Source: Thermoflavifilum aggregans
GTDB taxonomy: Bacteria > Bacteroidota > Bacteroidia > Chitinophagales > Chitinophagaceae
NCBI RefSeq assembly: GCF_002797735.1
Contig: NZ_PGFG01000001.1
Coordinates: 806,001-870,000 of the forward strand
DNA length: 64,000 nucleotides
Direction of reading: 5' to 3'
Position numbers and translations under genes: made by a program. Below the pieces are notes generated by a model. The model had not been told where the DNA came from. It worked only from the letters and a program-made list of their open reading frames with translations, and made no database searches. This document shows, piece after piece, positions 5,493 to 7,861 of the stretch; position 1 is the stretch's first letter; every line of letters begins with the position of its first letter.

Positions 5493-6257
5493 ATGTATCA
5501 GATTCATAAATCATTAGGTCAGCATTTTCTTCAGGATGAAAATATTTCCCGGAAAATCATTCAGGCATTGGCGTTTCAACCCGGCGAAGCTGTGCTGGAA
5601 GTAGGTCCTGGCTTGGGGGCATTGACAAAGCACTTGATGGCGCTGCCGGAGATTGACTATCGGGCAATTGAAATAGACAGGGAAAAAGTAGTGTATTTGC
5701 TAAAACAATATCCGGAACTGAAAGGAAATGTGCTGCAGGGCGATGTGCTGGAGATGGCATTGCCTTTTAGCAGACCGTTTAAATTAATCGGCAATTTCCC
5801 TTATCAGATCACTTCCGGCATCATGTTTCGGATCATGGAATGGAAAGCACATGTGCAGCTGGTAGTTGGTATGGTGCAGAAAGAAGTAGCCCGGCGCATA
5901 TGCAGTACACCCGGTCAGAAAACATACGGACTGTTAAGTGTATTGTTGCAAACGTGGTTTCAGATTGAATATCTGTTCGAGGTATCGCCCCACTGTTTTT
6001 TCCCTCCACCCCGCGTGCAATCGGCCGTCATCAGGCTGATGCCGAAACCTGAACATCCGTTGATCGCCGATGAAAAGCAATACATCAAACTGGTGAAAGC
6101 GGCTTTTCAGCAACGACGGAAAATGCTGCGCAATGCGTTAAAAGAATTATTTCCGCCAGAACAGCTGCAGCATCCTGTTTTTAATCAACGCGCCGAGCAG
6201 CTAGGCTGGGCAGATTATCTGCAATTGTATGAATGGTATATCCATGTAAACCAATAA
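5493..6257 (+). CDS. rsmA: 16S rRNA (adenine1518-N6/adenine1519-N6)-dimethyltransferase
   Basis: KsgA/RsmA dimethylates two adjacent adenines in helix 45 of 16S rRNA during small-subunit maturation. The 254-residue protein opens with KSLGQHFLQDENISRKI and has the SAM-binding motif VLEVGPGLGALT and the catalytic motif NFPY (NLPY in most bacteria). Length is normal. It is divergent from pdxA, with 83 bases between the two start codons, and both starts lie only six or seven bases from a -7 promoter element. The next gene starts 25 bases after its stop. Confidence 0.97.
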   Translation: MYQIHKSLGQHFLQDENISRKIIQALAFQPGEAVLEVGPGLGALTKHLMALPEIDYRAIEIDREKVVYLLKQYPELKGNVLQGDVLEMALPFSRPFKLIGNFPYQITSGIMFRIMEWKAHVQLVVGMVQKEVARRICSTPGQKTYGLLSVLLQTWFQIEYLFEVSPHCFFPPPRVQSAVIRLMPKPEHPLIADEKQYIKLVKAAFQQRRKMLRNALKELFPPEQLQHPVFNQRAEQLGWADYLQLYEWYIHVNQ

Positions 6258-6282: not shown

Positions 6283-7206
6283 ATGACCAAGGTTTTGATT
6301 ACTGCAAAAACGCATCCCTACCTGATTGATCATTTAAAGGAAAAGGGTTATCAGGTATTGTATCATCCGGCTATCAGCTATGAAGAGGCCTATCAGCTCA
6401 TTCACGAATGTGCAGGATTGGTTGTTACCACGCGTATTCCTGTTGACCGCCGGCTCATTGACCGGGGCATTCATCTGCAGTGGATTGCTCGCTTGGGTTC
6501 GGGCATGGAATTGATTGATGTGGCTTATGCTACTTCCAAGGGAATCCGCTGCGTAAGCAGTCCGGAAGGCAATGCAGATGCCGTAGGGGAACATGCCGTG
6601 GGCATGTTGGTGGCTCTTTTGCGCAATTTCAAGGTAAGCTATGATCAGCTGAAAGAAGGCATCTGGGAGCGGGAAAAAAACAGAGGATACGAAATCAGTG
6701 GGAAAGTGGTGGGCATTATCGGATACGGTCATACCGGATCGGCATTTGCCCGCAAACTCAGCGGCTTTGGAGCCACCATATTGGCTTATGACAAATACAA
6801 AACTGGTTTTGGCAATGAATATGTCCAGGAAGTAAGTCTGGAAACTATTTTCCGACAGGCAGATATTGTAAGCCTGCATGTGCCATTGACGGAAGAAACC
6901 CATCATATGGTCAATCGCAGGTTTATCCATGCATGTGCCGTACCGGTATATCTGATCAATACGTCGAGGGGAGCAGTAGTACATACCCATGATCTGGTGG
7001 AAGCCCTGAAGGAAGAACGCATAGCAGGAGCCTGCCTGGATGTACTGGAAAATGAACGCATCGATCATCTCACCGATGCTGAGCAGGAAGATTTTCAATA
7101 TCTGTTGCATCATCCTCGAGTGATCATGACGCCGCATATTGCCGGATATACCCATGAAGCCAGCCTCAAGATGGCTCAGGTGGTTTTGCATAAGCTGGGC
7201 ATCTGA
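6283..7206 (+). CDS. D-2-hydroxyacid dehydrogenase (phosphoglycerate dehydrogenase type)
   Basis: A 307-residue NAD-dependent dehydrogenase of the D-isomer-specific family. The Rossmann motif GIIGYGHTG is near residues 144-152, with D170 at the end of the following strand favouring NAD over NADP. The catalytic triad is R229 (INTSRGAVV), E256 (LDVLENE) and H285 (MTPHIAGYTHE). There is no C-terminal ACT or intervening domain, so it is the short form. It may be the serine-pathway enzyme (serA-like), but no ser genes are adjacent and substrate cannot be fixed from sequence. A terminator-like hairpin follows about 45 bases downstream. Confidence 0.88.
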   Translation: MTKVLITAKTHPYLIDHLKEKGYQVLYHPAISYEEAYQLIHECAGLVVTTRIPVDRRLIDRGIHLQWIARLGSGMELIDVAYATSKGIRCVSSPEGNADAVGEHAVGMLVALLRNFKVSYDQLKEGIWEREKNRGYEISGKVVGIIGYGHTGSAFARKLSGFGATILAYDKYKTGFGNEYVQEVSLETIFRQADIVSLHVPLTEETHHMVNRRFIHACAVPVYLINTSRGAVVHTHDLVEALKEERIAGACLDVLENERIDHLTDAEQEDFQYLLHHPRVIMTPHIAGYTHEASLKMAQVVLHKLGI

Positions 7207-7239
7207 TTTCCGGAAAGGGCATTATGTTTTAAAAAAATG

Positions 7240-7247
7240 TATATTTG
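7240..7247 (+). promoter_or_regulatory. -7 promoter element (TATATTTG) before greA
   Basis: An exact TAnnTTTG match 99 bases before the greA ATG. The leader it would produce begins immediately before a terminator-like hairpin at 7253-7289. Confidence 0.5.
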
Positions 7248-7252
7248 CATAT

Positions 7253-7289
7253 AACGCTTCTGTTTCCGGACAGAGGCGTTGATTTTTTT
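7253..7289 (+). terminator. terminator-like hairpin in the greA leader
   Basis: Arms 7253-7262 and 7271-7280 pair over 10 bp (one G-U) around an eight-base loop, followed by seven T residues at 7283-7289. It can end transcription of the upstream dehydrogenase. Because a promoter-like element lies just before it, it may also act as an attenuator in the greA leader. Confidence 0.75.
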
Positions 7290-7346
7290 ACGCACTGAAA
7301 AAACAATTACCCAAACATTTTATCGAACAGCAAAAACTCTTTTCCT

Positions 7347-7820
7347 ATGAGTGGTGTGCACTATGTGACCAGAGAAACGCTGGAACAGATGAAGGAAGAA
7401 CTGAATTACTTACGCACAAAGGGCCGTGCTGAAATAGCACGTGCCATTGCAGAAGCCCGTGAAAAAGGTGATTTACGGGAAAATGCAGAATATGATGCAG
7501 CCAAAGAGGCTCAGGGGCATCATGAAGCTCGTATTGCGCAGCTGGAAGAAGCCATTGCCAACGCCCGGGTCGTGGATGAAAAAGATATTGACACTTCAAA
7601 AGTGTCAATCCTCTCCGTGGTAAAAATTACCAATCTATCCACCCAGAAAACGATGGTATATCGGCTGGTTTCCGAGCAGGAGGCCGATTTGAAAGCCGGC
7701 AAGATTTCCGTGGCTTCACCTATCGGAAAAGGATTGCTGGGTAAAAAAGTAGGTGAAATAGCCGAAATTCAGGTGCCTTCTGGCATCATGAAGTTGCGTG
7801 TGGACGAAATTTCTGTATAA
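7347..7820 (+). CDS. greA: transcription elongation factor GreA
   Basis: GreA enters the RNA polymerase secondary channel and stimulates cleavage of backtracked transcripts. The 157-residue protein has the N-terminal coiled coil with the conserved acidic tip (REKGDLRENAEYDAAKEAQ, including the Asp and Glu that act in the active site) and the C-terminal FKBP-like domain ending SGIMKLRVDEISV. Length is normal. The ATG at 7347 is 57 bases after a T-run terminator structure, so expression may be set by read-through. It is followed by its own terminator and then the HIT gene. Confidence 0.96.
   Translation: MSGVHYVTRETLEQMKEELNYLRTKGRAEIARAIAEAREKGDLRENAEYDAAKEAQGHHEARIAQLEEAIANARVVDEKDIDTSKVSILSVVKITNLSTQKTMVYRLVSEQEADLKAGKISVASPIGKGLLGKKVGEIAEIQVPSGIMKLRVDEISV
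7587..7609. repeat. perfect 10-bp inverted repeat inside greA
   Basis: Arms 7587-7596 and 7600-7609 are exact complements with only three bases between them. They encode the segment around DIDTSKVSI linking the coiled coil to the C-terminal domain. No T-tract follows, so it is not a terminator. It may be an mRNA hairpin, a protein-binding palindrome, or chance. Confidence 0.8.
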
Positions 7821-7827
7821 CCGTTGT

Positions 7828-7861
7828 CCGCCAGGGATAAGCGTCTCTGGCGGTATTTTTA
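7828..7861 (+). terminator. terminator after greA
   Basis: Arms 7828-7837 and 7844-7853 form a 10-bp GC-rich stem (one G-T) with a six-base loop, followed by TATTTTTA. It lies between the greA stop and the HIT gene start. Confidence 0.85.

Follow-up and report, generated by a model that had tools for sequence, protein, structure and literature searches.

A predicted terminator hairpin in the greA leader of Thermoflavifilum aggregans and its counterparts across Bacteroidota

How do bacteria of the phylum Bacteroidota set the amount of their transcription elongation factor GreA? GreA keeps stalled RNA polymerases moving, and both its excess and its lack are harmful. To our knowledge, the way in which its amount is set is understood in Escherichia coli only. 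We analysed the greA locus of Thermoflavifilum aggregans within a window of 64,000 nucleotides (nt), corresponding to positions 806001-870000 of the 2.84-Mb genome. From the stop codon of the preceding dehydrogenase gene to greA, the order is a TATATTTG promoter box, a hairpin, a run of seven T residues, 57 nt and the ATG at 7347. Judged from its sequence and that of its relatives, greA probably has its own promoter, followed by a leader terminator of the Rho-independent type that would end part of the transcripts early, as the GraL leader does in E. coli. The elements of the leader are as follows.

7240-7247, + strand: TATATTTG, which fits the Bacteroidota -7 box TAnnTTTG exactly, as read from the sequence.
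7252-7254, + strand: predicted transcription start, set five nt past the end of the box from the -12 to -5 placement given in the available text of PMC9723704.
7252-7281, + strand: leader hairpin of 13 pairs with a loop of 4, beginning 4 nt past the box.
7283-7289, + strand: T7 tract, where a terminated leader RNA of about 38 nt is predicted to end; a T-tract also follows the hairpin in relatives.
7290-7346, + strand: remaining 5' untranslated region, 57 nt from the T-run to the ATG.
7347-7820, + strand: greA, coding for transcription elongation factor GreA, 157 amino acids (TIGR01462, 176.8 bits for a cut-off of 139).

An earlier note on this DNA had pointed to the box, the T-run and the 57-nt distance to the start codon, and all three are present. 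The hairpin that it described as 10 base pairs is present too, and is longer, with 13 pairs.

In Flavobacterium, TAnnTTTG is described as the -7 box recognised by the main sigma factor, occupying positions -12 to -5 (PMC9723704, available text). With the same placement, greA transcription would begin at about 7252, right where the hairpin starts. No TAnnTTTG box is found in 7290-7346. The greA box is not listed by the sigma-70 model of a loose consensus scan, the promoter being of the Bacteroidota type. In a 464-kb sample of the genome, made up of the window and 20 stretches of 20 kb each, 6 of 308 exact boxes on both strands have a T-tract hairpin within the next 25 nt. Four of these cases lie inside open reading frames (ORFs), one is intergenic, weak and without a gene start after it, and the last is greA.

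The hairpin with its T-tract is unusually stable. Region 7252-7290 folds at -17.6 kcal/mol (z -5.94), a stability reached by none of 200 shuffled sequences. For the longer leader 7252-7376, z is only -1.7; the special part is the hairpin alone. A loose terminator scan of the 5-kb region was not significant, with 7 terminator-like sites for 5.6 +/- 2.7 in shuffles. Rfam gave no match in the window, and region 7200-7380 returned two chance-level matches far below the gathering score; membership of a known RNA family was rejected on this ground. A covariance model built from the hairpins (R1) finds the greA leader in this genome with 37.4 bits (E 5.6e-5), the runner-up having 22.3 bits (E 0.29). 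The greA leader being the only R1 match above noise, a dispersed repeat or common terminator sequence was also rejected.

Is the hairpin conserved as an RNA? We compared 50 greA loci from relatives in the family and order, taken from 50 of the 56 matching genomes. The best named matches of the alignment headed by the window's GreA include Chitinophaga, Lacibacter and Sediminibacterium, and its close relatives among the named loci are Chitinophagaceae-like Bacteroidota. A T-tract hairpin lies in the 150 nt upstream of greA at 47 of the 50 loci. At two order relatives without one (L037 and L041), a hairpin-like sequence is seen by eye about 200 nt upstream, and their leaders may be longer. Most of the family have an outer stem of CAACGC...GCGTTG and several other families one of GAAACG...CGTTTC, while the upper stem and loop are free. 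For the covariation analysis, 44 of the 47 hairpins were aligned; L001 and L003, near copies of L002, and the poorly fitting L046 were omitted, so that the counts lean to well-fitting sequences. In this alignment, 95.8% of 523 stem cells are paired, and 10 of the 12 pairs have changed on both sides. The covariation score is 0.564 versus 0.215 +/- 0.016 in shuffles, none of 500 being as high. Sliding the partner by 1-3 columns leaves at most 55.3% paired. G.U or U.G pairs occupy 75 of the 523 stem cells, which fits an RNA rather than a DNA palindrome.

These data bear on a first alternative, in which the inverted repeat is a DNA operator bound by a repressor at the start site. The repeat does lie directly behind the promoter, and the sequence of the outer stem, CAACGC/GCGTTG, is conserved in the family. 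However, the G.U and U.G cells break the symmetry of the DNA yet keep the pairing of the RNA. The half-sites have no fixed spacing, they are followed by a T-tract, and the stem sequence is wholly different between families. The operator was rejected on the stem covariation with G.U pairs, and we consider it very improbable.

The survey was extended to 70 further loci, consisting of the 30 best-scored and 40 picked to cover families; the duplicates L076 and L108 were dropped before counting. A fixed finder was used, requiring a hairpin of -8 kcal/mol or lower and at least 6 T in 8, with an end no more than 100 nt from the start. It detects hairpin and T-tract at 107 of 118 greA loci, 51/54 in the family and order and 56/64 in the rest of the phylum sample. 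Several misses (e.g. L066, L092-L095, L240, L270 and L289) show a hairpin by eye and were kept as misses. With the same finder, the control genes give 17/90 (efp 8/30, lysS 7/30, smpB 2/30). For each control gene, the 30 best-scored loci out of 61 genomes were used; 16 of the 90 were open on both strands, and here we chose the one whose start was nearer. At a cut of -11 kcal/mol, the greA count is 101/118 (51/54 and 50/64) and the control count 12/90 (efp 4/30, lysS 6/30, smpB 2/30). Adding an exact box within 25 nt upstream leaves 45/118 for greA (32/54 and 13/64) and 1/90 for the controls (efp 0/30, lysS 1/30, smpB 0/30). The distance from hairpin end to greA start has quartiles of 29, 31 and 35 nt in the family and order, and a quartile range of 31-52 nt in the rest.

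We also examined 80 named loci as a second set, which may share species with the first. A hairpin is present within 200 nt at 72 of them and within 100 nt at 69. Of these 69, 52 reach -11 kcal/mol or lower; an exact box is present in 45. Only identical 90-nt leaders were merged between the sets (198 to 196). Of 15 loci of Gre-fold paralogues in the same genome sets, 14 could be assessed; two show a weak hairpin of -8.0 kcal/mol within 100 nt, and none has one at -11 or lower. Comparison of related leaders upholds the leader reading of the earlier note as to the order of promoter, hairpin and gene and its recurrence at greA outside the phylum of E. coli.

Two side observations were made. In five lysS loci (L151-L154 and L160, families f30 and f42), a T-tract hairpin lies 33-50 nt upstream of the start, with near-identical sequence in four f30 loci; this is possibly a lysS leader terminator. 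In family relatives L015, L022, L026, L030 and L031, a Shine-Dalgarno-like AAGGAGG directly precedes the greA start. Such a sequence is unusual in Bacteroidota, according to the available text of PMC6847099.

The T-tract is also what speaks against a second alternative, in which a constitutive hairpin at the 5' end serves to stabilise the greA mRNA, the T-tract terminates little and no regulation takes place. The hairpin starts at the predicted 5' end, and many Flavobacteriaceae hairpins are weak, as this reading would have it. Yet a stabilising hairpin would need no T-tract, and one follows in the 107 of 118 loci by the finder's definition. Moreover, GraL, the best-known relative, terminates (PMC6829880, available text). 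We find this explanation unlikely.

Does the hairpin belong to greA or to the gene before it? The genes around the leader are arranged as follows.

5493-6257, + strand: rsmA/ksgA, ahead of the dehydrogenase-like gene.
6283-7206, + strand: D-2-hydroxyacid dehydrogenase-like gene, directly upstream of greA.
From 7873, + strand: HIT-family gene, downstream of greA.

A further terminator-like hairpin of 11 pairs (7828-7853) lies directly 3' of greA, ahead of the HIT gene, and greA may therefore form a single-gene transcript.

In the window, the leader hairpin lies 45 nt past the stop of a co-directional gene. It could accordingly be only the terminator of the dehydrogenase gene, with the greA promoter further down; the upstream gene is co-directional in most family loci as well. 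The position of the boxes argues otherwise. Among 174 distinct greA leaders with a hairpin within 100 nt, exact boxes end 1-5 nt before the hairpin start in 37 cases and 6-10 nt before it in 24. The next two upstream bins hold 14 and 10, the 56-60 nt bin holds 10, and the other upstream bins hold at most 5. An exact box lies within 25 nt upstream of the hairpin in 90 of the 174 leaders, at a median distance of 6 nt. Against the 61 boxes at 1-10 nt before the hairpin stand only 2 between hairpin and start codon, and a greA promoter in that interval was rejected.

The upstream neighbours point the same way. They vary (dehydrogenase, outer-membrane protein, lipoprotein, glycosyltransferase-like, divergent genes), whereas the distance of the hairpin from greA holds at about 30 nt. 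The transcript of a divergent upstream gene cannot end at the hairpin. Nevertheless, of the 38 named-set loci whose upstream ORF is divergent, 32 keep a hairpin within 100 nt, and the hairpin is also kept in L020 and L034 of the family. The upstream genes are mechanical ORF calls; L214, one of those called divergent in the named set, overlaps greA and is likely a false call. A Pfam scan of ten divergent upstream proteins of the other set matched six to families: a TonB plug (L020), an AAA protein (L034), a SpoU methylase (L061), a D-Ala ligase (L118), a glycosyltransferase (L081) and an Fe-S protein (L087). The four without a match fall in a cluster of 29 homologous upstream proteins and are, as members of that cluster, real genes. 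The presence of the hairpin is independent of a co-directional upstream gene.

With hairpins kept beside divergent neighbours and boxes placed before them, termination of the upstream gene as the sole role was rejected; we hold it to be distinctly unlikely. The earlier note had named this case, a transcription start past 7290 with a hairpin that only ends the upstream gene, as the one that would overturn its reading, and the comparison disfavours it. In a combined reading, the hairpin attenuates greA and, at loci with an upstream transcript, terminates that one too. This accommodates all comparative results and the position of the hairpin in the window and in the co-directional loci. Nothing speaks directly against it; it is an addition to a greA leader terminator and is superfluous in divergent loci. 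In the window, where a co-directional gene stops 45 nt before it, the hairpin probably plays both roles; as an account of the element overall, we place the combined reading just short of an even chance.

Several observations weigh against a greA leader terminator. The hairpin of the window is placed where a terminator of the upstream gene would be. Its box has no good -33 TTG upstream, and the enrichment of TTG near -33 is modest (69 leaders). An exact box within 25 nt is found in just 45/118 leaders and 45/80 of the named set, and 11/118 and 11/80 loci have no finder hairpin within 100 nt. Many Flavobacteriaceae hairpins are weak, from -8 to -12 kcal/mol, and termination at these may be poor. 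Some lysS leaders carry such hairpins as well, and leader terminators are thus not unique to greA. Finally, the idea that GreA itself acts as the sensor is carried over from E. coli.

How could a leader terminator regulate greA? An intrinsic-terminator-like T-tract hairpin stands between the predicted greA promoter and greA. Transcription from the box at 7240-7247 would place the hairpin at about +1 to +30, with a U-tract ending near +38. A share of the polymerases would end at the U-tract and release a leader RNA of about 38 nt, the others reading through into greA. A classical antiterminator finds no place in the window, where the predicted start at 7252 is the first hairpin base and leaves no upstream RNA. 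Some leaders have box-to-hairpin distances as large as 23 nt, which would make room for upstream RNA of at most about 18 nt. In many leaders, however, the predicted 5' end and the hairpin are so close together that hardly any RNA is left to form an upstream antiterminator; half of those with an exact box would have no more than a few bases. RNA past the T-tract cannot antiterminate because it is made too late. Without such room, the polymerase's state at the U-tract would most likely determine the read-through ratio. The sensor would then be the polymerase with its partners. By analogy with E. coli, GreA would cleave backtracked RNA, return the polymerase to register and raise termination, giving a negative feedback on greA. 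The same GreA feedback as in E. coli would be the most likely use of the leader here.

The comparison with E. coli is instructive. According to the available text of PMC6829880, GreA lowers its own expression via GraL, which needs catalytic GreA and the leader sequence and is independent of the promoter, Hfq and the downstream region. Our finder recovers the GraL hairpin in E. coli MG1655, where the upstream gene dacB is divergent. The two leaders share a greA promoter of their own and a T-tract hairpin shortly behind the start and ahead of greA. They differ in geometry: 18 nt precede the GraL hairpin (+19 to +48; PMC6829880, available text), whereas the Bacteroidota hairpin would start at about +1 to +15 in leaders with an exact box. 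The GraL hairpin ends 102 nt from the start codon and the Bacteroidota hairpins usually 20-60 nt from it. Their sequences are unrelated. Termination and GreA feedback were measured for GraL, while the Bacteroidota leader is described here from comparative genomics.

Published greA leaders come from Proteobacteria, bacilli and Clostridia, and the greA family ranks seventh for attenuation in the work of Naville and Gautheret (2010), as given in the available text of PMC2965389; "Bacteroid-" does not occur in the main text of that paper. In the open-licence PubMed Central literature searched, we found no report of a Bacteroidota greA leader, and greA is not named in the available parts of PMC9723704, PMC10994844 and PMC2864571. 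The greA-leader and rnk-leader candidates of PMC2965389 (available text) are likewise terminator hairpins before greA found by comparison. In contrast to these candidates, the Bacteroidota leader has little room for an antiterminator, and the tested paralogues with the Gre fold lack a comparable hairpin.

The gene and the device are thus as known; what is new is a phylum-wide greA leader of unrelated sequence, whose hairpin is placed still nearer the promoter and would leave no space for an antiterminator. It suggests that Bacteroidota control the level of GreA through early termination of some of its messages, in the manner known from E. coli. A leader terminator that spans a phylum with a sequence unrelated between families offers a way to test two ideas: that termination at its own leader generally sets the dosage of GreA, and that polymerase state by itself suffices as sensor. 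We tentatively propose, as an idea that we would rate plausible though somewhat doubtful, a minimal Bacteroidota greA attenuator: a terminator transcribed first, with no antiterminator or ligand-binding part, the sensor being the polymerase with GreA. Together with GraL and the Firmicutes leaders, it would make autogenous termination at greA either very old or repeatedly invented, the sequence of the hairpin drifting while its place is held.
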